This document shows positions 6,499 through 51,597 of a DNA stretch of 51,597 nucleotides, piece after piece. Position 1 is the stretch's first letter. Every line of letters starts with the position of its first letter. Origin of the DNA: Planctomycetota bacterium (GTDB lineage: Bacteria > Planctomycetota > Planctomycetia > Pirellulales > Pirellulaceae); the NCBI GenBank assembly GCA_024276655.1, contig JAJRWU010000213.1, positions 1-51,597 on the forward strand, written 5' to 3'. The translations under genes were made by a program, and so were the position numbers. The notes beneath the pieces are model-generated. The model did no database searches and was not told where the DNA came from. It was given only the letters and a program-made list of their open reading frames with translations.

Positions 6499-6842
6499 TT
6501 TTTGGTTCTTCGCCGGCAAACCGCTACTTCGAGAAAGCGTCGGAACAACGGCGTCGATTCGAAGACGTCCATGGTTTGAATCTCACCGTTGATCGCGACA
6601 ATCACACCGACGACATTCACACCGACGACATTCTCGGCGTCCTCCGCCAAGCCATGAAGCTCCTTGACGTACGGCTCCAAGCGAGCAACGGCTTGAGCAT
6701 CGGCATAGTTGGCGATGAATGCGCCGCTGTGGGGCTGGACATTGTTGCTCTCGTTCATCTGCGCGACTTCGCTCCAAACCTTTTCCTGACTCTGCGAAGC
6801 CACCACCGCCAAGCGGGCTTTTTTGCTAAGAGCTCCTAACAT
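6480..6842 (-). pseudogene. Remnant of an ARPP-1-like protein gene
   Basis: The reading frame encodes the C-terminal half of the ARPP-1 family (ARG and rhodanese/phosphatase-superfamily-associated domain): SQEKVWSEVAQMN, SGAFIANYADAQAV, VVGVIVAINGEIQTMDVFES and TPLFRRF. The family N-terminal half is missing, and the first codons (MLGAL) are supplied by the 76-bp element at 6831-6906. After LFRRF the expected ending, with a W..L..SYALD pattern, is replaced by a basic tail, which suggests a frameshift or deletion. A perfect 15-bp tandem duplication at 6602-6631 gives the odd NVVGVNVVGV repeat. Family recognition comes from memory of the motif pattern. I infer a broken, probably non-functional copy. 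Confidence 0.65.
6602..6631. repeat. 15-bp tandem duplication
   Basis: The unit TCACACCGACGACAT occurs twice back to back (6602-6616 and 6617-6631). It lies inside the ARPP-1-like remnant, keeps the frame and adds five codons. It looks like replication slippage in a decaying gene. Confidence 0.85.
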
Positions 6843-6906
6843 AACCCCTGTGTGGCGTTTCAAACACGGAGTTTGATGCTGACCTACCAAGTTGTGTTAG
6901 AAGGTA
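6831..6906 (+). mobile_element. 76-bp MITE-like element, copy 1
   Basis: One of four copies of a 76-bp element in this window. Ends AGCTCCTAACATAAC and GTTGTGTTAGAAGGTA form imperfect terminal inverted repeats (11 of 13 matched positions). A central TCAAAC/GTTTGA stem is conserved. It is flanked by perfect 4-bp direct repeats TAAG (6827-6830 and 6907-6910), as expected for a target-site duplication. It has no coding capacity and would need a transposase elsewhere. It interrupts the ARPP-1-like gene. Confidence 0.8.
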
Positions 6907-7148
6907 TAAGATGCCCGGCGCTGCCGACGAATTTTCCGCGCCCCGCTTCTTGGGCCGATGTTGCCAGGCTTTGTGACTGCGAAACCACGAGCGACCATTG
7001 GAATGCATGCCTTGGCGGACGTCGGCCGTGGCGCGAACGCAAAACCGGTTGCTTGCAGCCGGCGCCGACAAGGAAGTAGGATAGGTTGCTCGTTGTTGTG
7101 CGGAAAATCGGCAAACCAATTTTGGACAGGTCCTCAGGCGATTCCACG

Positions 7149-32068: not shown

Positions 32069-32135
32069 ACATCCGTCGGAAATTATGAACAAGCCGTTGC
32101 GTCGTATATTAGGCAAGCGGCAGGAAATGACTTAG

Positions 32136-32211
32136 AGCTCCTAACATAACCCCTGTTTGGCATTTCACACACGGAGTTTGATGCTGACCTACCAAGTTGT
32201 GTTAGAAGGTA
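32136..32211 (+). mobile_element. 76-bp MITE-like element, copy 2
   Basis: Same length and ends as the copy at 6831-6906, with only a few substitutions. It is flanked by perfect TTAG direct repeats (32132-32135 and 32212-32215). The right-hand TTAG is also the edge of the 125-bp repeat, so it inserted at that edge. Confidence 0.85.
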
Positions 32212-32212
32212 T

Positions 32213-32337
32213 TAGCACCGCTCGATAAATAACTGTCGCATTTGTGTAGCCATCGTCGCCAGACGGTGGGTGAGCGGTGAACCATCCCACGCTCTGGCGA
32301 GCATGGCTACGACACTAATTCTCCGCTCGATGCTTAC
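32213..32337 (+). repeat. 125-bp dispersed repeat, copy B
   Basis: Reverse complement of 29563-29687 with about three mismatches in 125 bp. Contains the same GTAGCCATCGTCGCCAGACG / CTCTGGCGAGCATGGCTAC palindrome. It is inverted relative to copy A. Confidence 0.85.
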
Positions 32338-32540
32338 CCGCACGCAGCGGGAGCCCGTGAGTTTTTTTGGTTTCCGCCTACGCGGGAATGACCGTTTGCT
32401 GATTCACTCGCTTGCGCTTCGTGCTTGTATGAGTTAATACCTTCTAACACAACTCGGTAGGTCGGCATCAAACTCCGTGTTTGAAATGCCAAACAGGCGT
32501 TATGTTAGGAGTTCTAAGCTTTCATCTACCGCTCGCCTTA
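32334..32540. mobile_element. 142-bp element, second copy, interrupted
   Basis: 32334-32437 matches the reverse complement of 8315-8418, and CATCTACCGCTCGCC at 32523-32537 matches the element end at about 8296. Between them lies a 76-bp element. The outer left end of the 142-bp element is missing where the 125-bp repeat abuts it. Confidence 0.7.
32438..32513 (-). mobile_element. 76-bp MITE-like element, copy 3 (inverted)
   Basis: Inverted copy of the 76-bp family. Flanks are TTAA (32434-32437) and CTAA (32514-32517), three of four bases the same. It lies inside the 142-bp element and dates later than it. Confidence 0.8.
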
Positions 32541-35167: not shown

Positions 35168-35173
35168 TGTTTA

Positions 35174-35249
35174 GACCTTCTAACACAACTTGGTAGATTA
35201 GCATCAAACTCCGTGTTTGAAACGCCCAATAGGGGGTATGTTAGGAGCT
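35174..35249 (-). mobile_element. 76-bp MITE-like element, copy 4
   Basis: Inverted copy sitting exactly between two operon genes. Reading the minus strand, the flanks are TAAG at the BatA-like stop codon (TAA at 35251-35253) and TAAA before the next start. Its end AGAAGGT lies 7 bp before the ATG at 35167. Confidence 0.85.
35175..35181 (-). promoter_or_regulatory. Shine-Dalgarno site supplied by a mobile element
   Basis: The minus strand reads AGAAGGT followed by CTAAACA and ATG. The motif is the right terminal repeat of the 76-bp element and is conserved in all four copies. Spacing is suitable for ribosome binding. Confidence 0.6.
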
Positions 35250-35250
35250 C

Positions 35251-37227
35251 TTAGGCAATCATCCTTCGCTGGTGTAACCACCATTCGACAACCGTCAGCA
35301 AACAAGCCACCACCGCCAGATAAAACCAGAGCGGCCGCGAGAGCCAACTTGCCGTCAAAATGGCTGGTTTGTTTTTCGGCAGCAGTTCGACAGGCGTGCG
35401 CAAATCCGATTCCGAAACGTCCGACAAGTTCACCGCGATTTCCGCCAGCGGCCGCGAGCCGCTTTTCCGGACCACGCTCCACAGTCCAACCGCGTCGAAC
35501 GGCGGCAGCGCAACCGAGGGAGTTACACCGGTTGCATCTAGCTGCTCTTGATTCTTTGGGTCGCGGTTTCCGCGCACAACGAGCGGTTGCATATCGCCAG
35601 ATGGCGAACGCAGTTGCAGTACTTCGGCGGCGCGAACATTCGCGTCAACAAGATCGACTTCCGTAACGGCGCCGGTTTGCAACGCCGGCCGCAGTTCGCC
35701 TTGGCGCCCCGCGAACCAGCCGAGTGAATTGGTCATCATGATGGGAAAGGCCGTGCGAAATGCGAGGTCGCCTTCGTTAATGTTCACACTCAGCACGAGG
35801 CACTTTCCATTGGCGCGTTTCACTTCGGCATAGACAGGATCGCCCGAGAGCGAACCCGCCAAAACATGCGGCGCGGCGGTGAAACGCAGTTGCTTCGCTT
35901 GCGGCATAATGACGTTATCCAGCCGAACGTAGGTCATTAACGGCGAATCAGCGTCTTGCTTGATGATGATCGGATTGGCCAGCGACTCACCAACGGTCCA
36001 GAGGTCGGAGTCGTTCTGAGGATCGACAACAAGCAGATTACCCGGCGGAAGTTTCTGGGGAACATCGCGATGCAGCACGATGATTCCGCTGGTTGGCCAC
36101 GTTTCGGGAAACTCCTCCACAACCGAGATGCGAACCAGCGGATTCGCTTCAAACACCTTTCGCAGGAACAGGTTTCTTGAAACGATCAAGACGTTTTGAA
36201 TTTCGCGAGGCGGCAACACGGCCCACGCCGCGTCGTCGGTTGCCAGACTGTTGTTGTCGGCGGGGATTTCGGTGAGGCGGGCGACGTGCGTTCCGCCTTC
36301 GAGCGAAGTTTTCTCCAACGACCGCGTGAAAACGCCATCGGGCGCCAAGTCTAACGGCAGCACATCGACCGGTGCGCCGTCCAACTCCAATTCCAGTCGC
36401 CCTTTCACCGCGTTTGCCGACGCATTGTGAACACGCACCAACACTTCGTAACCCAGCGGATCGATCAAGCTGCGGCAGACCTGAAACTGTGTGATGCCAA
36501 TATTCCCAGCCTCGAAAGATCCAAAAATACGGCGTTGCAAAACGGAAGGCCGCTCGGATGAAGGCGAAACTGGGGAAGAGGAATCAGAACCTTTATCGCC
36601 CGGTTTGGGGTTCTCGGTTTTGTCTTCTTCGCGATCCTCCGTTGCGCAGCCATCGGTAAACACCAGCACTTCGCCGTGGGGATGTTCGCTCACCAACTGC
36701 TGAGCGAATTCGATCGCGGGGCGCAGCTTGGTGGGATTATCGGAAATGTTGATCGAGCGCAGGGCGCGTTTGAGCGTGGGTATGTGTCCGCTCATGCCGA
36801 CGACAACTTCCGGCTCCGGGCCCGCCAATACAATCGCCATTTCGTCGCGAAAACGAAGGCCGTCGGCGGTCGCCAGCGCATTTTCAATAGCGGCCTCGAA
36901 ACGCGATGGCAAGACGTCGGCGGCTCTCATGCTGGCCGAGTTGTCGATCACGACCACGATTCGGCGGGCTTGCAGCAGTTGCCAGGAGAATGAAGGATCG
37001 GCGACCGCCAACACCAACAAGGCAATGAACAGCAGTTGGACCAACAGCGACAGCAGATGCCGCAAGTACTGCCAGATCGATCGGGGCGGCTTTTCGTCGT
37101 ACAACTGTCTCCAAAACAGGTTCGTCGAAATCGGCACGCGCCGCAAGCGAACCTTGAGAATATAGAAAATGATGATCGGTATCGCCAATGCGGTCAGGGC
37201 GAGTGCAAGTGGCGCGGCAAGACTCAT
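35251..37227 (-). CDS. BatA-like protein with VWA domain
   Basis: 658 aa. The N-terminus (MSLAAPLALALTALAIPIIIFYILKVRLRRVPISTNLFW) matches the BatA/aerotolerance N-terminal double-helix domain, with a second helix near 58-78. A VWA domain follows at about 88-200 with MIDAS DNSAS (95-99) and VLVFTDGCATED. The rest is beta-rich extracytoplasmic sequence with a GATase-like NVLIVSRN segment, ending in a membrane helix at about 630-650. Role by family: an envelope complex with MoxR AAA+ ATPase. It starts 3 bp after the DUF58 stop. Confidence 0.85.
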   Translation of the reverse strand: MSLAAPLALALTALAIPIIIFYILKVRLRRVPISTNLFWRQLYDEKPPRSIWQYLRHLLSLLVQLLFIALLVLAVADPSFSWQLLQARRIVVVIDNSASMRAADVLPSRFEAAIENALATADGLRFRDEMAIVLAGPEPEVVVGMSGHIPTLKRALRSINISDNPTKLRPAIEFAQQLVSEHPHGEVLVFTDGCATEDREEDKTENPKPGDKGSDSSSPVSPSSERPSVLQRRIFGSFEAGNIGITQFQVCRSLIDPLGYEVLVRVHNASANAVKGRLELELDGAPVDVLPLDLAPDGVFTRSLEKTSLEGGTHVARLTEIPADNNSLATDDAAWAVLPPREIQNVLIVSRNLFLRKVFEANPLVRISVVEEFPETWPTSGIIVLHRDVPQKLPPGNLLVVDPQNDSDLWTVGESLANPIIIKQDADSPLMTYVRLDNVIMPQAKQLRFTAAPHVLAGSLSGDPVYAEVKRANGKCLVLSVNINEGDLAFRTAFPIMMTNSLGWFAGRQGELRPALQTGAVTEVDLVDANVRAAEVLQLRSPSGDMQPLVVRGNRDPKNQEQLDATGVTPSVALPPFDAVGLWSVVRKSGSRPLAEIAVNLSDVSESDLRTPVELLPKNKPAILTASWLSRPLWFYLAVVACLLTVVEWWLHQRRMIA

Positions 37228-37230
37228 GCA

Positions 37231-38109
37231 TTAGCCTCCCATTCCTACTTCGCGCATCATTCTGAGAATCAACTCGTCGAACGGCGTCGTGGCGTCCGAC
37301 TGCGTGCAGCCCAACCCGTAGTTGCGGCAATAATCGCGCACGGCGCGCTGGTGATTCTGGAACAACTCTTTGTAAGCCCGCAGATTCTTTTCCGTGACCG
37401 TCACCTTGCGCAGCGATTCCGTTTCAATATCCAATAATTCGACATCGCCCAGCAGCGCGGGGTCGGCTTCGCGAGCGTCGTGCAACTGCAAAACATGGCC
37501 GTCGAATTGCCGGTAGCGGAGTTGGTCGAGGCCGGGTTGAAAACCATGTTCGTCGAACAGGTCGCTGACCACGACGGCAATGCCGCTGCGCTGGCTGCGT
37601 TGCAACACCCCCTGCACCGCCCGACCGAGGTTCGTATCGCTGCCGCTGACCTGTTGCGATTCAAGGAACTTCATCAACGAGAGAATGCGGGCCTTGCCGC
37701 GCGCCAAGGGGAATTCGTCGACCACGCCATCGGCAAACGAGAGCACGCAGATTCGATCCAAACCCGCCAGCGCGATGTAAGCCAGGGCCGCGATCAAACG
37801 CCGCGCGAGATCGAACTTGGGCGAATCGCCGAAGCCCATGCTCCGCGAGCAATCGAGCAGCAAATAAATATGCAGATCTTGCTCCTCTTGGAACCGCTTC
37901 AGCAATAAGTCGCCATGGCGGGCGTACACATTCCAGTCCAGATAACGAATGTCGTCGCCGGGCGTATACTCCCGATGGTCGGAAAATTCGATGCCCGAAC
38001 CCAACTGCATCGTTCGGCGCTGCGCCAACAGCGAACCGCGAAACACCCGTTTCGAAATGATCGAAAGGTATTCGAGGCGTGTCAGGAAGTCGGGTTCAAA
38101 AAGAGACAT
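37231..38109 (-). CDS. DUF58 domain-containing protein
   Basis: 292 aa, soluble. Family blocks: RVFRGSLLAQRRTMQLGSGIEFSDHREYTPGDDIRYLDWNVYARHGDL-type core (positions about 21-67), then LLLDCSRSM with a MIDAS-like DCSRS at 86-90 and VVVSDLFDEHGF. DUF58 proteins pair with MoxR ATPases and VWA proteins. I prefer the ATG at 38109 (MSLFEPDFL), which begins like family members; an ATG five codons upstream (38124) is possible. It lies 60 bp after moxR. Confidence 0.88.
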   Translation of the reverse strand: MSLFEPDFLTRLEYLSIISKRVFRGSLLAQRRTMQLGSGIEFSDHREYTPGDDIRYLDWNVYARHGDLLLKRFQEEQDLHIYLLLDCSRSMGFGDSPKFDLARRLIAALAYIALAGLDRICVLSFADGVVDEFPLARGKARILSLMKFLESQQVSGSDTNLGRAVQGVLQRSQRSGIAVVVSDLFDEHGFQPGLDQLRYRQFDGHVLQLHDAREADPALLGDVELLDIETESLRKVTVTEKNLRAYKELFQNHQRAVRDYCRNYGLGCTQSDATTPFDELILRMMREVGMGG

Positions 38110-38169
38110 GAGGGCGCGTCGCATGGCAAGTGGAGGACGATCAGCAAAGTAATTCTTGGCAGGTAATTA

Positions 38170-39180
38170 TTAACCGGCGGCGAGTGCGTCTTCAGGCGCC
38201 TGTTGGATAATCTTACCGATCACATCGTCGGTGCTGATCCCCTCGGCCTGCCCTTCAAAGTTGAGAATCATGCGGTGCCGCAGAACGGGCAGCGCCATGG
38301 CGCGTAGGTCGTCTCGCGCGACGTGGTAACGGTTGTCGAGAATGGCTTTGATCTTCGCGCCGAGAATCATCGCTTGCAGGGCGCGGGGGCTGGCGCCGTA
38401 ACGCACGTATTGCTTGGTGGCGGGCGAGGCGAGTTCGTTTTCAGGATGGGTCGCGAGCACGATCGCGATGCCGTAGCGGCGGACTTCCTGCGAGATGGGA
38501 ATCTTTCGAGCGAGTCGCGACATCTCGATGATGCGCTCCCCCGACAACACCGCTTCGGCCTGGGGGTTCTGCATTTCGGTGGTTCGATCAAGAATCGTTT
38601 CCAGCTCGCCCACGTCGGGATAGGTCACGATCAGCTTGCAAAAGAAGCGGTCGAGTTGTGCTTCGGGCAGCGGATACGTGCCTTCCATTTCGAGCGGGTT
38701 TTGCGTGGCCATCACAAAGAACGGCTCGCTCAGCACATGCGTGATTCCAGCCACCGTGACACTGTGTTCCTGCATCGACTCCAACAACGCCGACTGCGTC
38801 TTGGGCGTCGCCCGGTTGATTTCATCGGCCAACACCACGTTGGCGAACAGCGGCCCCTTTTGGAATTCAAAGGCCTTCTTACCGTCGGCGTTCTCCACGA
38901 CCATGTTTGTGCCGATCAAGTCGGCGGGCATTAAATCGGGCGTGAACTGAATGCGATGGAACGACAAATGCAACGCTTCGGCCAGCGTTCGCACGGTCAA
39001 CGTTTTGCCCAGCCCCGGCACTCCCTCCAGCAGCACATGCCCGCCGGCGATCAACGCCAAGAGGGTGTCTTCCAGAATTTCACGTTGGCCGACGATCACC
39101 TTCCCAATTTCGGCTCGCAAACGCTCGAAGTCGTTTCGGAACTCCTCCAGTTGTTGCCGCAGTTGATCCGTCTCGCTCAT
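38170..39180 (-). CDS. MoxR family AAA+ ATPase
   Basis: 336 aa. Walker A GVPGLGKT at 53-60, Walker B VLADEINRATPKTQSALLE (acidic pair DE), sensor 1 region VMATQNPLEMEGTYPLPEAQLDRF, and the C-terminal lid with ASPRALQAMILGAK. MoxR ATPases act as chaperones that load metal or assemble VWA-protein complexes. It is the first gene of a four-gene operon with DUF58, BatA-like and VWA genes. It is divergent from the giant TPR gene, with a 264-bp gap between their starts. Confidence 0.93.
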   Translation of the reverse strand: MSETDQLRQQLEEFRNDFERLRAEIGKVIVGQREILEDTLLALIAGGHVLLEGVPGLGKTLTVRTLAEALHLSFHRIQFTPDLMPADLIGTNMVVENADGKKAFEFQKGPLFANVVLADEINRATPKTQSALLESMQEHSVTVAGITHVLSEPFFVMATQNPLEMEGTYPLPEAQLDRFFCKLIVTYPDVGELETILDRTTEMQNPQAEAVLSGERIIEMSRLARKIPISQEVRRYGIAIVLATHPENELASPATKQYVRYGASPRALQAMILGAKIKAILDNRYHVARDDLRAMALPVLRHRMILNFEGQAEGISTDDVIGKIIQQAPEDALAAG

Positions 39181-39431
39181 GGAAAGCCCTTACTTGGAAG
39201 TGAGATGTGAAGAGTCCCCTGCTAAGGATTGTGCGCATGCCGCGATCCTTTTGTCTAGCGAACTCCTCGAAAATGTATCAACTGGCGTAGGAGCAGTGTT
39301 TGGCCCGCTCGCCATTTTGAACCGGCATGTGGCGTTGGGCGAAAAAACGATATGCAATATTTGCACAATCGCGACGAATGTGTAATGATCAGCAAATGCC
39401 ACCTTTTCTCTGCTGGATCTCATCGCCAACG

Positions 39432-39444: not shown

Positions 39445-42400
39445 ATGTTGCGTTTTCGCTCGGCGTTTTTCGCTGTTTTTGTACATCTAATGCCAGGGCT
39501 TCTGTTCGTTGTGGCGGCCGGCATGCCGCTGTGCGCCGATGCTCAATCCACCGATGCTCAATCCACCGCGCAAACCACGAACCTTGACAAACTGTCCGAA
39601 GATGAACTGCGACAGATAAAAATTGCCGAGCGGTTTCTGACGGTGCTCCAGCGGAACCCCCGCCGGGGAACGGCGCTGGATCGCATCTACGGGCATCACG
39701 TTGAGTTCGGCACGCTGGATGCATTCTTGGCGAAATTGCGAAAAAATGTCCAGGATTCTCCGCAAGATGGCGTCGGTTGGATGCTGCTGGGTCTGTTCGA
39801 CGCCCACCGAGGCGAAGACGCAGACGCCATTGAGGCGTTCCAGAACGCCGAGCGGCTTCGCCCCCAGGACGCCCTGGCCAGTTATTATCTGGGGCAATCG
39901 TCACTGCTGCTGGGCCAACCCGAAAAAGCGGTTGCCGCGTTTAATCGGGCCATCGAACGCCAGCCGCGAAGAACCGATCTGCTGGAAATCTTTCAGCAGT
40001 TGGGGCGCGTCCACCAGCGGGCGCAGCGCACCGAGGAAGCCCTGCAAGTCTGGCAACGCCTCGAAGCACTCTTCCCCAACGATGCTCGCGTGCTGGAACA
40101 AATCGCGATCACGTTGGTCGAAGAGGGAGAATTCGCCCTGGCCTTGCCCCGCTACCAAAAGCTGGCCCAGCTCGTTCAAGACGACTACCGGAGGACGATG
40201 TTTCGCATGGAAGTCGCGGAGTTGAAAATTCGCGAAAACGATCGCCAGGGAGGGCTCGCCGATTTCGAAAAACTGATCGCCGATTTGAATCCTCAAGGCT
40301 GGTTGTTTCGCGATGTGCGGCGGCGAATTGAAGACGTGTTCGTTCGCAACGGGAATCAGGATGGTCTGGTCGAATATTACGAGAAGTGGATCAAGTCGCA
40401 TCCTGAAGATGTTGACGCAATGGCTCGCACGGCCAAATATTTGGCGTCGTCGGCGCGTGTGCCGGAAGCGGCCCAATGGATGGAGAAGGCGCTCAAATTG
40501 GCGCCGACGCGCTCGGAATTACGGAAGGCGTTCATCGACCAATTGGTCGACGACCAACGTTACCCCGACGCAATCAAGCAATACGAATTGCTGTTGGCGT
40601 CGGCGCCGGGCAACGTCGACTTCCTGCGTGATTGGGGAAAGCTCGTACTCAAAAACAAAGAGCTAACACCTGAAAAACGCCAAGCCGAGGCGACTCGCAT
40701 CTGGAAAAGAATTCTCGCCGCGCGCACCGACGATGCAGTCACGATAGCGCAAGTCGCTGATCTGTTTCGCCAAGCCAACATGAACGACCAAGCGTTGTCG
40801 CTCTACAAGCAGGCGGTGGCGCAGGCGCCGAACCAGCCGCAGTATCGGGAGTATCTGGGCGAGTTTTGTCACGTTCTGAAGCGGCCCAAAGACGCCCTCG
40901 CCACCTGGACCGCCATCGCCGCGGGCGAACGCCATACCGCTGTCATTGTCGCCCGACTGGCTGAAATTTACAACAGTTTCGGCTACCTCGACGAAGCCGT
41001 CACGCAGATCGCGGACGCCTGCCAGCTCGACCCCAAGGATTTCGCCTTGCAGTTGAAGGCCGCCGATTACCACGCCCGCGCCGAAAAATTCGAAGCAGCG
41101 CTGGCTTTCATCGACCGCGCCGAAAAACTTGCCGCCACGGACGACGAACAAGAGTCGGTGATCAACCAGCGCATTGAAGTCTTCCGCGCGAGCCGAAGTT
41201 TGGATGAAGAAATCACGGCGCTGGCGGCGATTGTGCAAAAAGACAAAAACGCGGCGTCGAGCCAGTGGCGTCTGCTGGCCCGGTATTACCAAGCCGACAG
41301 CCGTTGGGCCGACGCCAGCGAAGCGATCGACGCCGCTTTGGAAAAAGACCCCAAGTCGATTCCGGCGCTGTCGACCGCCGCACGCATCGCGGAGCTGTCG
41401 GGCGATTTCTCGCGCGCCGCCGCGATGAACCGGCAGTTGGCGGTGGTGGATCGTCGCTCGCGGGGCGACCACTTGATGAACGTCGCTCGTTTGGAGGCGC
41501 AGTTAGGGCGAGCCGACGAAGCTCTGCAAGCGGCGCGCGAATTGATCGTGTCGGCGCCCGGCAATACCGACAACTACGAGTTCTACGCGCAGCTTTGTTT
41601 TCAGTTGGGCAAGGCGGAGGAGGGCGTCAAGACGCTCCGCAAGGCGGTGCGCATCAATCCTACCGAACCGTATTTGATTATGTCGCTGGGGGCGGCCCTT
41701 TCTCGGCAATTCCGCACCGACGAGGCGATTGAAGTTTATTGGCGGGCGTTCGAAAAGACCGACGAACTAGACGACCAAACGAGTTTGACGGTCAAACTCA
41801 CCGAACTGTATCTGCAACTCAATCAGTTCGACAAACTGCTGGATCGTTTGAAACGAGGCCGCCGTAGCGAAGATAAGCGGCGAGAAATGACGATCTGCCT
41901 GGCGCAGGCGCATCAGTCGTCGGGCGATTACGGAACGGCGCGGCAGGAACTGGAAAGTCTGCTCAGCGAGGACACGCGCGACACGAACCTGCTCCAACAA
42001 CTCTCGAAGCTTTGCGAAGCCGGCTCCGATCTCGACGCGGCAACAAACTACCAACGGCAACTTGCCGCGATCGCGCCGGGCCATGAAACCGAGTACCGAC
42101 TCGCCGGGCTTCTTCAAGAGGCCGGCGAGCACGACGCGTCCAGCGAGATTTTGTTGCGGCTGATGCGCCGCGAGGAAAACCCGATTCGGCGGTTGCGAAA
42201 CCTCGATTCCCTGCTCAAGCAGGGGGCTTATGAGAACGTTCTCTCCCTGACCGAACAGTTGCTGAGCGAGCAGCACGACGATTGGGAGCTGCTCTATCGG
42301 GAGGCGGTGGCTTGGGCGTCGCTCGATAAGTTCACAGAGGCGGGGATTCGCTTCGAACGTTTGCTGGCGGTCAATGCGGTTCACGAAACGATGGGAATCG

Positions 42401-43668
42401 TGGCGGCCGATAAGTTCAAACGGGCGCGCTCCAAGGCCCGCTCGAAAAACTTGCAGGGCGTCTCCTCGCGACTGCCCACGCGCCGCTCGCCGCTGGCCAT
42501 GCTCGGTTCATCCGCTCAAATCCGGCAAGCTGCGGGGCTCGACGCAAACAACAACAACTTCGGCGGTTCGCGCGCCGCGCAGTCGGTGTGGACGCCCAAC
42601 GCCTTCGGCGAAGCGCGTATGGCGGCGTACGCCTGGCTGATGCGTATCGAACAGGAGCGAAAGAGCGCCGAAGAGGCGCCACTCGACGAAAACAACGTGG
42701 GTGACGAAAACAATGCCTGGGAGGATCGTTTGCAGAAACTCAGCGCCGCCGCTACGGCGGAAGACGCACGCCCCGAGACGATCTACGACTGGATGTACGT
42801 CGAACAACTTCGCGGAAATTTGGAGTCGATTTTTGCCGTCGCCCGTCGATTGGCGAAAGCCGGCGGGCGCGAATCGCAACAGTTCTTCCTGCGGTCGCTT
42901 TTGACGCGCGGCGCCAACCAAGCCAACGCACAAATAGTCCAACAACAAAACGCCAAGCCGCAAAAGAAGCCGCTCGCCGAAGACGACCTCGAATTGATGC
43001 TCGCCTGCTACGAAGCACTCGCTTCCGAGGCCGACAAACCAACAACCGTAGCGGCGTTTGGCCGAGTGATGGTTTCTGGCGGGCAGACCTACGTACAAGT
43101 CGCTGGAAGTTGGACGCTAATATCCAACCTGCTAGCCGGCGGAACGTTTACCGGCTTGGTTATTGAAGAGTTGAAGCTCGCCGGTCGGGAAGAGCAAGCC
43201 GGGCGACTGCTGCAAAAACAGATCGACTCCGCCGACTCGTCGGCGCAACTCGCCGCCGTCATGAACTTTTTCCTGGCGAACGAAGAATACGATCGCATCG
43301 ACGAACTATTTCCGAAATGGCTGGAAGCCGCCCACGAGGATATCGCCCAGGGACCGAGCGCCGCGATGATCGCCGCGCGTGGTTCAGCTCGGGCTTCGAA
43401 AGTGGTTGATCCCCTCGCGCCCGCTGCGAACTTATTGATGAATTGGATGGCGCATCTGGGGCCGGAGGAAGAAAACGCGAAAATTCTCTCGCTGCTCGAT
43501 CACGCGTTCGAGATCGGCGCCGAAGTCGCACGGCAAAGGAGGGCGGAACGGAGCCAACAGAAGCGGAAGAGGAGTGCAACCAACACAAGGAGCCGCAGCA
43601 CGTATTTTCAACTCAAGTACGGCCAGGAAAATATTCAATCTCAGTTTCAGTACCCGCAGCCGAACTAA
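39445..43668 (+). CDS. Giant TPR protein, N-terminal segment (ends at in-frame TAA)
   Basis: 1407 aa to the first stop. A signal peptide (MLRFRSAFFAVFVHLMPGLL to ADAQS, about 1-36) is followed by a two-unit DAQST repeat and then many TPR-like repeats (for example WMLLGLFDAHRGEDADAIEAFQNA, ALASYYLGQSSLLLGQPEKAVAAFNRAIERQP). Exported TPR superhelices scaffold protein interactions; no enzyme motif is visible. The frame stops at a TAA (43666-43668), but the next codons continue in the same frame as normal protein (YVDRASLMLLREVYEVFK). The intact gene would be at least 4,051 codons to the window edge. The break could be a nonsense mutation, a sequencing error or readthrough. It may be functionally linked to the divergent moxR operon. 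Confidence 0.85.
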   Translation: MLRFRSAFFAVFVHLMPGLLFVVAAGMPLCADAQSTDAQSTAQTTNLDKLSEDELRQIKIAERFLTVLQRNPRRGTALDRIYGHHVEFGTLDAFLAKLRKNVQDSPQDGVGWMLLGLFDAHRGEDADAIEAFQNAERLRPQDALASYYLGQSSLLLGQPEKAVAAFNRAIERQPRRTDLLEIFQQLGRVHQRAQRTEEALQVWQRLEALFPNDARVLEQIAITLVEEGEFALALPRYQKLAQLVQDDYRRTMFRMEVAELKIRENDRQGGLADFEKLIADLNPQGWLFRDVRRRIEDVFVRNGNQDGLVEYYEKWIKSHPEDVDAMARTAKYLASSARVPEAAQWMEKALKLAPTRSELRKAFIDQLVDDQRYPDAIKQYELLLASAPGNVDFLRDWGKLVLKNKELTPEKRQAEATRIWKRILAARTDDAVTIAQVADLFRQANMNDQALSLYKQAVAQAPNQPQYREYLGEFCHVLKRPKDALATWTAIAAGERHTAVIVARLAEIYNSFGYLDEAVTQIADACQLDPKDFALQLKAADYHARAEKFEAALAFIDRAEKLAATDDEQESVINQRIEVFRASRSLDEEITALAAIVQKDKNAASSQWRLLARYYQADSRWADASEAIDAALEKDPKSIPALSTAARIAELSGDFSRAAAMNRQLAVVDRRSRGDHLMNVARLEAQLGRADEALQAARELIVSAPGNTDNYEFYAQLCFQLGKAEEGVKTLRKAVRINPTEPYLIMSLGAALSRQFRTDEAIEVYWRAFEKTDELDDQTSLTVKLTELYLQLNQFDKLLDRLKRGRRSEDKRREMTICLAQAHQSSGDYGTARQELESLLSEDTRDTNLLQQLSKLCEAGSDLDAATNYQRQLAAIAPGHETEYRLAGLLQEAGEHDASSEILLRLMRREENPIRRLRNLDSLLKQGAYENVLSLTEQLLSEQHDDWELLYREAVAWASLDKFTEAGIRFERLLAVNAVHETMGIVAADKFKRARSKARSKNLQGVSSRLPTRRSPLAMLGSSAQIRQAAGLDANNNNFGGSRAAQSVWTPNAFGEARMAAYAWLMRIEQERKSAEEAPLDENNVGDENNAWEDRLQKLSAAATAEDARPETIYDWMYVEQLRGNLESIFAVARRLAKAGGRESQQFFLRSLLTRGANQANAQIVQQQNAKPQKKPLAEDDLELMLACYEALASEADKPTTVAAFGRVMVSGGQTYVQVAGSWTLISNLLAGGTFTGLVIEELKLAGREEQAGRLLQKQIDSADSSAQLAAVMNFFLANEEYDRIDELFPKWLEAAHEDIAQGPSAAMIAARGSARASKVVDPLAPAANLLMNWMAHLGPEEENAKILSLLDHAFEIGAEVARQRRAERSQQKRKRSATNTRSRSTYFQLKYGQENIQSQFQYPQPN
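39538..39567 (+). repeat. 15-bp tandem duplication in the giant gene
   Basis: GATGCTCAATCCACC occurs twice back to back just after the signal peptide, giving DAQSTDAQST. It is in frame and likely neutral. Confidence 0.85.
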
Positions 43669-43689
43669 TATGTCGACCGGGCGTCGCTG

Positions 43690-46600
43690 ATGTTGCTCCG
43701 CGAAGTTTATGAAGTCTTCAAGCGGAACGACGTGCTCGACGATCTGCCCGAGCATCTGGCGAAGCGATTGCAAGCCGCCGGCGACGATGACAAGCTATAC
43801 GCCATTCTCATACTGGCGTATTCACGCTGGTGGCTGGAAGAGCAGGAAGAGGCCTTGGAATTGTTGTCGGAGGCGGGGGCGTTACTCAACGACGATCCCG
43901 TGTTTCGCCTGGAAATCGCTTCGCTGCATCAATCGATGGGGAATTTTGAAGACGCCTTGGAAATCGTCGAGGCGATCGCGCCGCGCGACCAAAAACTGGT
44001 GCAACAACGCGAACTGCTAGTGCTGGAGTTGGCCGAACGCGTGGGCGATGTTGCGCGGGCGCGCAAGGCGGCCGAACGGTTGTTCGGCCTGCGGCTCGAT
44101 TCGAAAACGCAACTGGCCTTAATCGAGCAGATGCGCCGGCTCGGCATGCACGAGATGGCCGAGGCGATTGTGTCGCGCGTGCAACGGCGCTCCAGCAACG
44201 ATCTCGCGTCGCTGGCTTCGCTCATGACCTTGTATCAAGGGCAAGGCAAGGTCGAATTGGCCCAGCAACTAGCGCACACGATTCTCCGCCGCACGAAATC
44301 GCCGTTGTCGAACATGAGCGCGGCGGGTCGGAACCCGTTCCGATACCAGACCAGCAACAACAACTCCCAGATGCGAACCCAATCGCTGCAGTTGCTCCAG
44401 CGCACCGGTGCGTTGAAGGAGTTGATCGCGAAGTTGGAAAGCCAGCTTGAACGCTCCCCCAATTCGCCGCAACTCTACGCCAAGTTGATCGAGTATTACG
44501 AATCTTCGAACAATCGGGAGAAGGTCGAATCGCTGCTGGTGAAGGCGGTCGCGGCGCGCCCCGACGCCGCTGTTTTTCGATACAAAATCGCCAAACATTT
44601 TGTCTCGACGGGGAAACGCGACGAAGCCTGTGATCAGTATCTGGAATTATTGAAACAGAAACCGCAATGGGTGGCGGGAGAACTGTATCAAATCGGCAGA
44701 GTCTTTGAGCAAGCCAAACGCACTCTCGATTTGGTCCAGGCGTTTGAGAAAATCAATTTGAAGCAGTTCAGTCAGCCGTACTACGTCATCAACCTCGTGG
44801 CCAACTTAATGCGCGGCCAGCGAGGCGAGCCGAGCGAAGCCGAAATAAAACTGGCGCTCAACCTGTTTGAGAAAGCGTTCGAGGCTTTCCCGCAATACCG
44901 CAGCAACATGATGTCGAACTTGAGTAGTCCGAAGCTCTGGAAGCTCGATCGGGTTTACCAACTTGGCAAGCGAGCGGTCGTTCCCTCGGCAAGCGAAGCC
45001 GCCGCGGCGCCCTGGTACGGGCTGAATCAGATTTATTCCTACAGCCAGGGTGGGAAGGTAAGCGGTCAGTTCCACCAAGTGCTCAACGGCGTGCATGGAA
45101 CCGACAACCTGCCCGACTTTCGTAAAGCGATTGAAAGGCGTTTACAAGAGACGCCTCAGTGGCTGGGCGGCGAAGCGATGCTGGCCTTGATCGAACTAAA
45201 AGAAAACCAAAAGCAACAAGCCCGGCAGCGGTTGGAAAAGCTGGTTTCCAATGAGGAAACGTTGAAGGCGATGTCGTCGAACACCTGTTGGATCATCGGC
45301 CAGGAACTGGATCAGTTTGAAGAGACGCGCCCTCTGGCAATCAAACTGCTCGAAGCGGCGATTAAAAAAAGTAACTCGATGCAGCAGATGCAATACTCGC
45401 CCGTTGCCAAACTGATCAAAATGTACCACGACATGGGACGCAACGACGATGCGCGAAACCTATTGCTGAAGCAGCTTCGCAACCCGAGCGGAAATGCGTT
45501 CGACCCGTTTTACTCTTCCTACCAACGAGTCCAGAATTCCGTTTGGGCCGGGCGGCAGTTGTTGAAGCTGGATAGCCCCGTCGACGCCGTGCGCGTTTTC
45601 CGGGAGCTCTCGCAAGACGACGCTGTCGAACAGGCCAGCCAATGGGGAGGGAATCAGCCAGATTATTTCAAGAACCAAGTTACGAAGGGGCTCAACGATG
45701 CACTCGCCGCACTCGATGCCGCCAATGCCCCCGAAGCGATGGCGCAACTCTTGGCGGTTCCGAAGAAACTCGCCAAGGGCGCCCCGATCTTGGACCTGTT
45801 GCTGATCGTTCCCTCGATCAACGACGCGCAAACCAAGCCGATGGAAAGTCCGCTGGTCGACTTGCTCGTCATGCTCTCGAAAGAGAAGACCGTCGCCGAC
45901 GGAATCCGCCAGCGGTTGGCCGGTTTGCAAGCGGATCATCCCGCCGACCTCTCGGTGCGTATCGTGGAAGCCGCATATCTGCTCCGCATCGAGCACGAGC
46001 AGGCTCCTGATTCACTGCGGGCGTTGCTGGCGGCGTTCGAATCGCAACCTTTGGAAAAAATCAAAACGGGGCGCCGCCCCAACTCTCGCCAGCGTCGAGA
46101 AGCGCTGGCGCAAGTTCCGCTCTGGCTGATCGCCCGCGAATGCCTAGCGAGCAAAGACCGGCAAGAAATCGGCGAGGCGTTCGCCGCCGGCGCGCTTCAG
46201 GCGGCTCGCCGTCAGACCGACGATCAACACACCGCCGCCATTCTTTACGGCTGGGCAAACATCGCTCTGGAACGCAACGACCGCCAACAAGCCGAAGCGA
46301 AATGGGCGGAACTGTTGGCGATTGTGACGCAGAACGGCGCCGAGAGCAAAAAGCCATCCAAATCGCATCGCATTCCGCCGCTCACACTCTCCAAGTTCCG
46401 CCTCGCGATCACGATCGCGCATGCCGCGGCGGAGAACCAAATGCCTGCTTTGTCGCGGCAGGCGGTGCAAGCCGCCATGCGGGGCGGGATGCCGGTAAAG
46501 GATGTGGCGAAATCGTCATCCAACAGCGGCCGCGGCGTGATGGTATTCTCGACTTTTGTCGGATCTACCTCGGCGGAATCCAACCTCGCAAAATTGGAAA

Positions 46601-49600
46601 CCGAAGTCGCGACGTCGCTCCGCAAGGTGATCGCCCAATGGCAAGGCGATGCTTATCCGGCGAAAGAGGTTTATGCGCTGCTGCGGCCGATCATCCTGCC
46701 TGAAAATCGTCCCGGTGAGATTCGCATGTATAGCGATTCCTCAAAATTGTTTTCCGAGGCGCAAGCCAGCAGCCTGGGCGAAGTGCTGGTCGAATGGGCG
46801 CGGCGAGCCGGCGAGACTGAACGACTTTCGGCAGACCTCGCAGAGCGAAAGAAGAACCCGGCGGCGAAAATTGCGGCGTTGGTCCTGCAAACACAAATAG
46901 CGCTTTCCCGCAACCAACTCGACGACGCCAAAACCGCTCTGGTGGAGTTGGCGAAAGAGGTCAAGCAACGCGGCTTGCCGCCGATCGTGCAACTTGCCTG
47001 CCATGCGGCGCTGCCGGCGTCGGGGCATGAAAGTTTGGCGAAGCCAGCGTTTGAAATCCTCCAATCGGCGATCAACTTGAACGTACGATCTGCGGGAGGC
47101 AATTCACACAGCCACCAGCTTTCACTAGGCCGTTTGGTCTCGAAAGTGAATCGCTATCTGGCCCACGATCCTCGGCAGGTCATGAAGTTCTTTGAAGATT
47201 ATCTTAATGGTCGGCAACCCTATTACGCCAGACATAGCGGCGAATACGTGCAGTATCTGCAACGGCAAGACTTGGCCGCGATCGCCGAAGAAGCAGCCAA
47301 AACCGGCTTGCCGCATATTGCCTTGGACTACCTGGCCCGCGTGGCCGATATCTCGATCGCGCGTTATTCAAGACCAGGCACCGCTATCGCGATGGCGGTG
47401 ATTTATCGAGAAATGAGCCGCCTTTCAGCTGAGCAACGGTACGAGGCGTGGCGCGATTGGACACTGCCCGCCAAGGGGCGGCAAACCGTTCGATTCGCCG
47501 CCGATTGGGTCGAACCGGTGCGGACGCCGCAAGCGTTCTTGAAGCCTGGCAAGCGCGAGGGCCAACTCCATGCCACCGACCTACTGAGCAATCTTACGGA
47601 GTTGGTAACCGCCGCCCAAGAGAGCGGGCGGCTGGAGGAATTGCGCGGCCTCGCCGAGGACGCATACGAAAAGAAACTGGAGAACGCATCGTTCCTGTTC
47701 GCGATTCTGCTGGCAAAAATGGACGATTCCCAACGCGGCAAGGAAGTCATCGAACAACTCGTCTCGACCATCGGCGAGCGATTGAAACCGCAGTCTGGGC
47801 AATCGCGTTCAGACGGCGTGAGCGATTATTTGGTCTACCAGGCTTGTATGCAGTCGGCGCAATTGTCGCCTCTGTACCGGGCACATCTGGTCTCGGTGCA
47901 TCAGGCTTTTCGGAACACCCTCAACGCCCGCGTGTTGGGACATTTGCCGATTGATCTGGCCCGCCGCGAATTCGAGAGCGAACCGCCCACGATCCGCCCC
48001 GGCGATGATCCCCAACTGGCGCATTGGCAGGTGTTCAGTACGAAGCAAGTGACCGTTGGCGGAACCCATCCTTGGTGGGAGGTTCACGAAGGCCAACTCG
48101 CGCATCTTAGCGGCGCCGGCTCCGATTTTCTCAGCTTCGCGTATCCGCTGACGGGCGACTTTGAGTTCACGGTCGAAGCGTATTATGGTTCCTGGGCCGA
48201 AGCCGACCTTGGCTACGGCGGAGCGGTGGTGGAAGCTCAAAAGTGGGGTTCTCGCATGCCCATTTGGTCGATCGGCGGCCATGAATCGCTCTACTTGCCA
48301 GCGGCCCTTCGCGGCATGCTGGAGAGATTCACCTCGCTCAAAATCCAAGTTGCCGATGGCAAAATGAAGCAATTCCTCAACAACGCCCTGGTCTATGAAG
48401 AGGAAGTCAGCGACACCAGCCCCTGGCTGACGCTCTTCACCGACTACGCCCGCGCCACCACGTTCCGCAACCCGCGAATTACTGGCAACCCGACGATCCC
48501 GCGCGAAGTTTCGCTCATCAATGGCGATCGAATGGACGGCTGGAACACTTCTTTCTACGGTGAAACACAACCGCGTCATCGTTTGATGGCGTTAAAGGTT
48601 GAAAACGAAAACGAGTACGATTCTCGATTGCGTCAGCAGCAGGCGGAGCCGAGCGCGTTCGATTGGCAAGCCGCCGACGGAGCGCTCGTCGGTCAAAAAA
48701 GCACGCGTTCCCAAAGTTGGGCCTACTACCAGCGACCGCTTCGCGATCAGGAATCGTTTCACTATGAATTCTTTTATACTCCTGGCGAATCGGTGGCGCA
48801 TCCCACGATTGGCCGCATCGCCTTACTGCTCGAACCCGCTGGCGTTGACGAACATTGGCTGACGCGTCTCAATTGGGATGAACCGGTGCTTGGCATCGTC
48901 GACGACAACCGGCTGAGCAACGCCGCTGCGCGCCGCGGCCCAAAAGAGCTTCCGCTTAAGCCCGATGATTGGAACCGGGTCGGGTTGACGCTCGCCGGGC
49001 GTACGCTTCGCGTCGTGTTGAACGGCGATCTGGTTTACGAACGAACCGTTGAACCGGAAATTGATTTGCAGGTTGGTCTCTATCACGGGAAAGGGCGGTC
49101 GTTGAAAGTTCGCGAACTGAAGCTGAGAGGGCCTTGGCCCGAAACGCTCACCGCGGAAATTCGTAATAACATGTTGGCTTCCAACAAAGAGTACACGCCT
49201 GCCGATCATCGCTTGCTTCACGACATTCTCGGCGAGCGGTTCTTTATTCAGGACGCCGCGCCGCTTGTAGCGCGGGCTCGGCGATTACCTGAACAGCAGG
49301 CCTACGAAGAACTGCGCGCCTGGGTGTTGGCTTCGCCCGACCATGCGAATCATCGGCTGTATTTTGAATTTGTCTCGTCCGCCGAATCGACCCGGCAAGA
49401 GATAATCTGCCCGGCAATGGAACTCATGTCGGTTGCCCAACAAGCTGGGAAGCTGGCTGAATTAGCCGCACAAATTACTGCAATAAACATGCCAAACGAG
49501 AGCGGACAGCGCGGCAAAATCGGGCTTCTGGCGCTGCTCGCGATGCAGCGGCAAGATTTTGTCGCGGCGCGACAAGGCATGGCGCAACTCAACGCGTTGG

Positions 49601-51597
49601 CCGCGAAAGGCTTCCCGCAGAGCATGAGCCCGACCGAACGAGCGAGCGAATTCGTGGTTGCCTGGCAAGCAGCGAAGCATTCCGAATTGCAATTTGCCGC
49701 GTTCGATTTGTCGCAGCAACTGCTCATGAAACAACGCGACGCCAAAACCAAGGCGAAAGACGCGAAATGGGACAAGTGGGCCAACATGCTCGGCGGCCAT
49801 ATCGATCGAGCGATGCGGTTCGGTTCGCAGGCCGCAGCAGATAAACCGCGTTTGACGCAGTGGGCGAATGTTCCGTATTACAAGCCGGAGATGCACAAAA
49901 ATGGGCTGCGGCATACGGAGTGGGAGTACTCGCCGGGCGTGGTCGACCATGTTCCCGGCGGAACCTGGGGCCAGCTCTTTTTTCAGTCGCCGTTGGAAGG
50001 CGACTTCGAAATAAACGTCCAACGAACGATGCATGGATACCGTGAAGCCGCGATCACCTACGGCATGCACTCCGCCGAACCTCGCTACGACTACAAAGCC
50101 ACGCGCGTGGTCAACCTCATGCACGCCGTCAAGGATGAGCCGGGCAAGATCACGATTCCCAATCAGGGCAACTGGCTGGCCGGCTTTCGCATCGTGGTGA
50201 AAAACAACAAAGTCAGAACGTTCGTCAATGGAACCCAAATTCATGAAGAATCGTTTTCGCAACGCCCCGACCCCTGGCTTGTGCTGCAAGCTTATAACGC
50301 GGGCTTCCAATCTTCCATTCGCAATCTTCGCATTAGCGGAAATCCGAAGATTCCCGACCAACTCGACCTCATCAATTTCGCTAGTTGGGGCGCGTGGCGA
50401 GCCGACATGTATGGCGATTCCCTTTCGCTAGACGCAGCCAACGAATCGGCTCCGTGGAGAAAGGCCGACGGTGAGATTCAAGGCCGGCTTCGCGAGAACG
50501 TTTCTGATACGCCCCGCCAGAGCTTGCTGATGTATCAGCGCCCGATGTTGGAAGACGGCGTGATCGAGTTCGAGTCGTACGATATTCCCGGTGAGTTCGA
50601 GGTCCATCCTGCCGTTGGCCGCTCGGCGTTACTCGTTTCCGCCGATGGAGTAAAGAAGCATCTACTGACAGACGCGCAATTCGCAACCAGCGGCCTCGCG
50701 CCAAACAACTCCGCGCCGATCGAAGGCGCGGCGAAAAAGATCGCCCTCAAGCAGCGGGATTGGAACCGATACCGGCTGTCCTTAAAAGGCGATCAACTCA
50801 CACTCGCCGTCAATGGTGCGGATGTCGCCACGATCACCTTGACCGAACCTGCGGCGCAGCGCTATTTCGGCTTGTTCCGCTACTCAAATAAAACAAAGTG
50901 CCGCGTTCGCAATCTTGTTTATCGGGGAGAGTGGCCGAAAACGCTGCCGACGGTCGCGGATCAGCAACTGGCTAGGGCGTCGGCCGAAAATCAATTCGCC
51001 GCCTGGCCTGAATCGCAAGTGTTCGACTTCACCGAACCGATCAGCAAACTCCAAGCGAAGGGGCTGGAGCCGGGCGGCGCTGTATCGGGGATTACGTCGG
51101 TCGAAGGTGGAACGCGGCTATTACTACAAAACGCCGATGGCTACGCGAAGCGGCCGCGTCTTCACCTACGCCAGCCGATCAGCGAAGATTGCGTGATCAC
51201 GCTCGACTTCGAAGGCTTCAAAATCCAGAAACCGAAAGAAGGGTGGGGCGCTTATCTGGTGTTGCGAGCGGCGGTGGATACCGCTTCCAATCCGGGAGTC
51301 GAGACATCGCTCGGCGTGGATCAAAACGGCAATACGAACGTTCGCTCCGTTCGCGGACACAAAACGCTCGCCGGCAAGGCCAGCCATGAGAGCCGGCACT
51401 GGCCGATTTCCATGGCCGCCGGTCGCCTACGCTTGGTTCGCCAGGGCGCAACGATTTCGGCTTGGTTCGCGGAGCCGAATTCCAATGACTTTCGCCTGCT
51501 CGAAACATGGCCGGTGGGCGAAACGCCGATCAAGGAGATCATCGTCCAATGCGCCGCCTCTCATGCAACCGCCAGCGTCGACGTCGTTCTCAAGCGG
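43690..51597 (+). CDS. Giant TPR/DUF1583-like protein, C-terminal segment (partial, no stop in window)
   Basis: 2,636 codons open to the window edge, in the same frame as the segment before it. The ATG at 43690 is the first start after the TAA but has no Shine-Dalgarno site, and the frame is already open from 43669. TPR-like helices continue to about 47950. From about 48020 it carries concanavalin-like modules of the DUF1581/DUF1583 planctomycete type, repeated: module 1 at about 48020-49130 (HWQVFSTKQ, ITGNPTIPREVSLI, WNRVGLTLAGRTLRVVLNG), module 2 at about 49890-50940 (RISGNPKIPDQLDLI, WNRYRLSLKGDQLTLAVNG), and a third from about 51020. It is presumably extracytoplasmic. The function is unknown; carbohydrate binding is only a guess from the fold. 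Confidence 0.82.
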   Translation, partial: MLLREVYEVFKRNDVLDDLPEHLAKRLQAAGDDDKLYAILILAYSRWWLEEQEEALELLSEAGALLNDDPVFRLEIASLHQSMGNFEDALEIVEAIAPRDQKLVQQRELLVLELAERVGDVARARKAAERLFGLRLDSKTQLALIEQMRRLGMHEMAEAIVSRVQRRSSNDLASLASLMTLYQGQGKVELAQQLAHTILRRTKSPLSNMSAAGRNPFRYQTSNNNSQMRTQSLQLLQRTGALKELIAKLESQLERSPNSPQLYAKLIEYYESSNNREKVESLLVKAVAARPDAAVFRYKIAKHFVSTGKRDEACDQYLELLKQKPQWVAGELYQIGRVFEQAKRTLDLVQAFEKINLKQFSQPYYVINLVANLMRGQRGEPSEAEIKLALNLFEKAFEAFPQYRSNMMSNLSSPKLWKLDRVYQLGKRAVVPSASEAAAAPWYGLNQIYSYSQGGKVSGQFHQVLNGVHGTDNLPDFRKAIERRLQETPQWLGGEAMLALIELKENQKQQARQRLEKLVSNEETLKAMSSNTCWIIGQELDQFEETRPLAIKLLEAAIKKSNSMQQMQYSPVAKLIKMYHDMGRNDDARNLLLKQLRNPSGNAFDPFYSSYQRVQNSVWAGRQLLKLDSPVDAVRVFRELSQDDAVEQASQWGGNQPDYFKNQVTKGLNDALAALDAANAPEAMAQLLAVPKKLAKGAPILDLLLIVPSINDAQTKPMESPLVDLLVMLSKEKTVADGIRQRLAGLQADHPADLSVRIVEAAYLLRIEHEQAPDSLRALLAAFESQPLEKIKTGRRPNSRQRREALAQVPLWLIARECLASKDRQEIGEAFAAGALQAARRQTDDQHTAAILYGWANIALERNDRQQAEAKWAELLAIVTQNGAESKKPSKSHRIPPLTLSKFRLAITIAHAAAENQMPALSRQAVQAAMRGGMPVKDVAKSSSNSGRGVMVFSTFVGSTSAESNLAKLETEVATSLRKVIAQWQGDAYPAKEVYALLRPIILPENRPGEIRMYSDSSKLFSEAQASSLGEVLVEWARRAGETERLSADLAERKKNPAAKIAALVLQTQIALSRNQLDDAKTALVELAKEVKQRGLPPIVQLACHAALPASGHESLAKPAFEILQSAINLNVRSAGGNSHSHQLSLGRLVSKVNRYLAHDPRQVMKFFEDYLNGRQPYYARHSGEYVQYLQRQDLAAIAEEAAKTGLPHIALDYLARVADISIARYSRPGTAIAMAVIYREMSRLSAEQRYEAWRDWTLPAKGRQTVRFAADWVEPVRTPQAFLKPGKREGQLHATDLLSNLTELVTAAQESGRLEELRGLAEDAYEKKLENASFLFAILLAKMDDSQRGKEVIEQLVSTIGERLKPQSGQSRSDGVSDYLVYQACMQSAQLSPLYRAHLVSVHQAFRNTLNARVLGHLPIDLARREFESEPPTIRPGDDPQLAHWQVFSTKQVTVGGTHPWWEVHEGQLAHLSGAGSDFLSFAYPLTGDFEFTVEAYYGSWAEADLGYGGAVVEAQKWGSRMPIWSIGGHESLYLPAALRGMLERFTSLKIQVADGKMKQFLNNALVYEEEVSDTSPWLTLFTDYARATTFRNPRITGNPTIPREVSLINGDRMDGWNTSFYGETQPRHRLMALKVENENEYDSRLRQQQAEPSAFDWQAADGALVGQKSTRSQSWAYYQRPLRDQESFHYEFFYTPGESVAHPTIGRIALLLEPAGVDEHWLTRLNWDEPVLGIVDDNRLSNAAARRGPKELPLKPDDWNRVGLTLAGRTLRVVLNGDLVYERTVEPEIDLQVGLYHGKGRSLKVRELKLRGPWPETLTAEIRNNMLASNKEYTPADHRLLHDILGERFFIQDAAPLVARARRLPEQQAYEELRAWVLASPDHANHRLYFEFVSSAESTRQEIICPAMELMSVAQQAGKLAELAAQITAINMPNESGQRGKIGLLALLAMQRQDFVAARQGMAQLNALAAKGFPQSMSPTERASEFVVAWQAAKHSELQFAAFDLSQQLLMKQRDAKTKAKDAKWDKWANMLGGHIDRAMRFGSQAAADKPRLTQWANVPYYKPEMHKNGLRHTEWEYSPGVVDHVPGGTWGQLFFQSPLEGDFEINVQRTMHGYREAAITYGMHSAEPRYDYKATRVVNLMHAVKDEPGKITIPNQGNWLAGFRIVVKNNKVRTFVNGTQIHEESFSQRPDPWLVLQAYNAGFQSSIRNLRISGNPKIPDQLDLINFASWGAWRADMYGDSLSLDAANESAPWRKADGEIQGRLRENVSDTPRQSLLMYQRPMLEDGVIEFESYDIPGEFEVHPAVGRSALLVSADGVKKHLLTDAQFATSGLAPNNSAPIEGAAKKIALKQRDWNRYRLSLKGDQLTLAVNGADVATITLTEPAAQRYFGLFRYSNKTKCRVRNLVYRGEWPKTLPTVADQQLARASAENQFAAWPESQVFDFTEPISKLQAKGLEPGGAVSGITSVEGGTRLLLQNADGYAKRPRLHLRQPISEDCVITLDFEGFKIQKPKEGWGAYLVLRAAVDTASNPGVETSLGVDQNGNTNVRSVRGHKTLAGKASHESRHWPISMAAGRLRLVRQGATISAWFAEPNSNDFRLLETWPVGETPIKEIIVQCAASHATASVDVVLKR

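Follow-up and report, generated by a model that had tools for sequence, protein, structure and literature searches.

A private in-frame TAA at a glutamate codon of a giant TPR-DUF1581-DUF1583 gene in a planctomycete draft genome is probably a consensus error

The window, a stretch of 51,597 nucleotides, is the entire contig G000:C136 of a metagenome-type draft assembly of a Planctomycetota bacterium (G000; 5.96 Mb in 328 contigs, 96% complete). A same-genus relative, G001, is referred to as the congener, and L-numbers denote loci or sequence pieces. A frame opening at ATG 39445 on the forward strand closes at TAA 43666-43668, and an alternative upstream ATG at 39352 gives 1438 aa to the same TAA. 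The same frame is then open from 43669 to 51597, where the contig end cuts the downstream part about a dozen codons short of the congener's stop. The features of the TPR-DUF1581-DUF1583 family are present, with TPR in the N-terminal part and DUF1581 and DUF1583 in the C-terminal part, and the giant protein is apparently exported, as read from its sequence. The parts of the gene are given below.

39445..43668, forward strand: 5' part with a signal-peptide-like N-terminus (by eye) and TPR repeats (reading frame and Pfam TPR families)
43540..43665, forward strand: poorly conserved linker before the stop, limits approximate (alignment and low codon score)
43666..43668, forward strand: private in-frame TAA, GAA (Glu) in the congener (sense codon in nine of nine aligned long-frame relatives)
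43669..51597, forward strand: 3' part in the same frame, truncated at the contig end (reading frame and congener comparison)
43690..43692, forward strand: first in-frame ATG after the stop, with no signal-peptide-like segment after it (sequence and alignment)
48343..48579, forward strand: DUF1581, the better of two stretches (residues 1559-1637 of the downstream part)
48712..49143, forward strand: DUF1583_N, first copy (domain match)
50518..50940, forward strand: DUF1583_N, second copy (domain match)
51088..51555, forward strand: DUF1583 C domain (residues 2474-2629 of the downstream part)

No DUF1583_N match was found in G000 outside the giant gene. The divergent neighbours on the reverse strand (window 32555-39189) are MoxR-type AAA ATPase, DUF58, BatA/VWA and VWA-GATase1-like proteins. 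A dispersed repeat of about 85 bp, also present in the congener, occurs in the window at 6826-6909, 32130-32215, 32433-32518 and 35169-35258.

The junction was inspected for its frame, its possible starts and its codon use. The preliminary description had reported an in-frame TAA followed by a frame open to the contig end, no frameshift and no ribosome site near 43690, and all three observations were reproduced: the frame is the same on both sides, which rules out a frameshift, and no obvious ribosome site was seen by eye before 43690, the next in-frame ATG. Its statement that codon use is alike on both sides was wrong at the junction, the codon score being 0.02 in the last 60 codons before the TAA versus 0.38 in the 60 after it. 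The alignment placed the TAA at the end of a variable linker. Among 534 same-frame stop-separated pairs (at least 100 codons on each side, taken from 850,429 bases of G000 in 57 pieces), the window TAA ranked first for the coding score of the 60 codons after the stop, and this rank indicates an event beyond chance. An out-of-frame ATG at 43670, within TAATATG, opens only six codons, and an overlapping TGATG lies at 43688-43692. The downstream part read from 43690 begins MLLREVYEVF, which is not signal-peptide-like by eye, and a Met occupies this position in only three of nine relatives (G001, G073 and G089); a new gene start after the TAA was ruled out on these grounds.

The 544 residues after the TAA were used as the query against 98 genomes, G000 among them, and 31 of these gave a match. 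Besides G000, nine close relatives carry single frames of 3,756-4,250 codons that span the junction with no internal stop. Alignment with such homologues was the check named in the preliminary description, and it revealed sense codons in all nine at the position of the TAA: GAA in the congener, then CTT, CTT, ACC, GAG, CTG, CAG, AAC and ATT. A pattern-based scan of the GTDB collection gave 72 loci, counted as loci and not as genomes; at least three (L043, L047 and L056) coincide with contigs of the nine relatives. Every one of the 72 is open across the junction, the upstream frame being complete (at least 1,326 codons) in 56 and, in the other 16, cut by a contig end and open for at least 104 codons. 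The scan, which may omit records very near G000, returned no second genome of the window's species. The stop thus recurs in none of the nine aligned relatives and in none of the 72 partly overlapping loci, and the TAATATG context is missing in the congener. The alignment thus confirmed that the window gene was originally single and in one frame, in accordance with the single-gene origin suggested earlier. The idea of a conserved stop making a short and a long form of an exported protein found no support in these counts. Four options had been offered for the stop; a nonsense mutation and a base-calling error fit the data, but coupled proteins and readthrough are very unlikely, the stop occurring in no relative examined.

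Natural two-gene versions of the protein exist elsewhere in the family. In two more distant relatives, G062 (L041) and G072 (L042), the same protein is encoded by two adjacent overlapping genes. The first frame, of 2,283 or 2,317 codons, holds the TPR part and extends roughly 900 codons past the position of the window's TAA; the second gene is the DUF1581/DUF1583 part, overlaps the first by ATGA or TGATG and has a signal-peptide-like start (by eye). This arrangement is a gene fusion or fission within the giant-protein family. Several further loci stop about 810-940 codons past the junction, and under the criteria used most of them lack a downstream frame. In L062 (Pirellula sp. 49624_E51.1, a MAG), an apparent frame break lies about 909 codons after the junction and the homology continues in another frame (by eye).

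The age of the stop was estimated by comparison with the congener. Identity to G001 is 90.3% before the stop and 90.1% after it, and dN/dS is 0.19 before and 0.24 after by NG86, and 0.26 and 0.27 by YN00. Both halves are under purifying selection, the final 300 alignment columns before the stop being more relaxed (dN/dS of 0.44). At one neutral substitution per site the giant gene would be expected to gain about 476 stops, and one is seen. With a dS between G000 and G001 of 0.21-0.28, our own arithmetic gives some 50 or more stops on one neutral branch, so that a single stop indicates either a very recent event or a stop that is not real.

Stops in G000 were scored by codon use on both sides over the same 850,429 bases, and 23 candidates were obtained, the window TAA not being among them on account of its low upstream score. 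Seven were kept by eye as probable breaks; the 16 that resembled neighbouring genes or antisense frames were dropped, and a break of another kind among these would have been missed. The seven were compared with Pfam and NCBIfam and then with the G001 codons. GAA in the congener is TAA in G000 in the genes for Der, an M24 peptidase, a sigma54 activator and a WD40-match protein, and GAG is TAG in a histidine kinase. With the window included, all six private stops checked fall on a Glu codon through G>T at the first base (five GAA>TAA and one GAG>TAG), and none is TGA. The comparison of G000 with G001 gave fifteen single-base stop differences, including five of the six private stops. Eight of the other ten were viewed and are located at the ends of genes, before starts or in antisense frames, GAA/TAA at L131@9982 and TCA/TAA at window 32066 being among these eight; the two outside the eight viewed are TGA/TAA end swaps (L147@216 and L165@2675). 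A wider scan of 1,435,694 bases (98 pieces, roughly one quarter of the genome) added five likely breaks, all of them TAA: L278@18815, L295@16105, L292@12879, L134@637 and L282@11547. These were selected by eye from 57 rows, which include earlier candidates, and stand outside the count of six. In L278 the stop lies inside a Pfam match, and in L295 inside a weak match to a solved structure; L292, L134 and L282 gave no Pfam match. Scanning 146,918 bases of G001 turned up a likely break (L251@17368, TGA, by eye) in a frame resembling a transposase, and G000 is thus not the only genome with such breaks. The alignment of 68,565 bases, coding and non-coding together, contains 141 gaps, 126 of which are not a multiple of three.

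The remaining two of the seven, L126@5619 and L131@9370, are TGA in G000 and in the congener, and were set aside as likely selenocysteine codons. The first (G000:C6) lies in the context GDT-U-PVC of an AhpC/TSA-like redoxin with weak NCBIfam matches to SelL-related and PrxU proteins, and the second (G000:C11) in the context PDG-U-TC of an FG-GAP/ASPIC protein. A tRNA-Sec match over the cut-off is present in G000 (C307:1612-1707, 66.4 bits), and none over the cut-off was found in G001. Both genes likely encode selenoproteins, as far as predicted sequence can tell, and an FG-GAP/ASPIC selenoprotein may be unusual. Selenocysteine as the cause of the window stop was ruled out as it needs TGA.

The break in Der (EngA) is the most telling of the set. 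Der is a ribosome-assembly GTPase; in PMC3883289 it is described as essential, both GTPase domains being indispensable in E. coli. Each of 20 genomes holds one Der match over the cut-off, and the sole match in G000 (G000:C45:9972, L165) carries an in-frame TAA at a Glu codon, the other 19 having no such stop; the position is Glu in five of five aligned relatives. A living strain without Der is not credible, and the Der stop must accordingly be either spurious or translated as an amino acid. All six stops are most simply explained by a common cause, which we infer to be technical.

The best reading is that the TAA probably entered the consensus as an erroneous G>T call at a Glu codon and that the real gene is intact, with a real recent nonsense mutation as a second and unlikely explanation. 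The organism would then hold one intact gene of about 4,100 codons, as its relatives do, and the window TAA would be one of a set of Glu-codon G>T consensus errors in this assembly. A consensus error is favoured because it needs nothing new and explains the broken Der: the same kind of break hits a gene that can hardly be lost, as an error in the consensus predicts. The error spectrum was examined for the demands this makes. Six Glu codons out of six have a chance of 0.39 if only G>T occurs and of about 0.02 if G>T and C>A occur symmetrically on the two strands. An error would therefore have to favour G>T strongly, and chance or sequence context would have to account for the lack of C>A stops. 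The C>A stops (from TAC, TCG, TCA and TGC) that are expected of a strand-symmetric artefact are absent among the six, and no common flanking motif is visible at the six sites. Over 21,908 codons compared with the congener, no excess of G>T over T>G was found (nonsynonymous 56 versus 59, radical 14 versus 15, synonymous 68 versus 71), a weak comparison in which only about four extra G>T are expected by rough arithmetic; nonsynonymous C>A is 72 versus 58 for A>C in the same codons. G000 also has a contig of 93.5 kb, which suggests a coverage high enough for random damage to be outvoted and thereby counts against a consensus error.

A real and very recent nonsense mutation, either making the gene a pseudogene of recent origin or being a polymorphism of the population that entered the consensus, would require only a single GAA>TAA substitution, the rest of the gene being intact and constrained. 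The position of the stop, just after a variable linker, is one at which a truncated product may be tolerable, and the apparent frame break of L062 (seen by eye) affects the same gene family. Set against this explanation are the five other genes with the same change from Glu to stop, among them the only Der found, and the form of the changes, as six G>T changes out of six at Glu codons look unlike ordinary mutation (a chance of about 1.5e-6 under the observed synonymous spectrum, base counts uncorrected). Synonymous G>T changes are not above the reverse ones, giving no mutator sign, and a G>T mutator lineage is not indicated by the counts. This explanation was judged unlikely.

Suppression by a Glu-inserting ochre or amber tRNA, by which UAA and UAG are sometimes read as Glu, the changes are nearly neutral and full-length proteins are made, was considered very unlikely. 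It predicts what is seen at the six private stops, all Glu and none TGA, and Der would stay functional. The terminators of 486 dominant frames in G000 are TAA 162, TAG 115 and TGA 209; TAA and TAG together thus end 277 frames, which argues against such suppression. In G000, RF1 is represented by a match over the cut-off and RF2 probably by a second, weaker one, both without internal stops, and terminator use together with RF1 rules out a global reassignment of TAA. No UUA anticodon was found in the 41 tRNAs that ARAGORN read from 42 matches, with 150 of 202 candidates scored. A weak tRNA match in G000:C302 was rejected as a suppressor, its anticodon loop being TTGACAT and not TTA. A natural candidate, tRNA-Glu(UUC), was not found in G000 by a DNA search that can miss it: in G028, a genome in one contig, this search recovered a single tRNA-Glu. 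Sequence flanking the tRNA-Glu(UUC) gene of the congener maps close to the beginning of the short contig G000:C64, and the G000 copy probably lies in an assembly gap. Next to the congener's tRNA-Glu lies a repeat of about 105 bp, for which G000 has at least 36 matching places. Conversion of tRNA-Glu(UUC) to UUA would leave GAA unread unless the tRNA were duplicated, and we know of no bacterial precedent for a Glu-inserting reading of UAA or UAG. Were suppression nevertheless real, GAA>TAA and GAG>TAG would have begun drifting into ordinary and essential genes; there is a very small chance that the lineage reads UAA and UAG as Glu, either weakly or in certain contexts, which would be an early stage of a bacterial stop codon with two meanings. 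A functional stop, giving two translationally coupled proteins or, by programmed readthrough, a short and a long form, is the least probable explanation: the purifying selection downstream, the TAATATG and TGATG that would in principle permit a reinitiation chain and the natural two-gene versions in G062 and G072 speak for it, but the stop is missing in all relatives examined, the congener lacks the TAATATG context and no signal-peptide-like start follows, unlike in the second genes of G062 and G072.

For annotation, the locus should be treated as one frame with a suspect base, as a reading with two forms of a giant protein would mislead. The assembly holds a recognisable set of Glu-to-stop G>T calls, of which six were compared with the congener, and a further five breaks are likely. 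If the set reflects a sequencing problem, the assembly is thereby flagged; if it reflects a true decoding change, it would be remarkable.

The results were compared with known systems. Literature searches on DUF1583 together with Planctomycetes, on premature stops in MAGs and on SZUA-33 returned no paper. Oxidative G:C>T:A sequencing errors (PMC8748355) resemble the present case in the G>T change; they differ in being rare per read, whereas the change here must survive into the consensus, and in that no C>A partner stops occur here. Blastocrithidia nonstop, in which UAR is reported to encode Glu and UAA also to terminate (PMC12153298), is similar in that Glu codons are replaced by TAA or TAG while TAA still ends genes. 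The present case is unlike it in that only about four in ten thousand Glu codons are affected (rough arithmetic), and in that the organism is a bacterium whose RF1 match is intact and in which no suppressor tRNA was found. G062 and G072 make the same protein from two adjacent genes, but their split lies roughly 900 codons further on, with an overlap and a second signal-peptide-like segment, neither of which is present at the window's TAA. Compared with the giant genes of planctomycetes (PMC5177795), the apparent split is private to the G000 assembly and the passages available from that paper are silent on this family; the shared feature is a planctomycete gene much longer than 5 kb.
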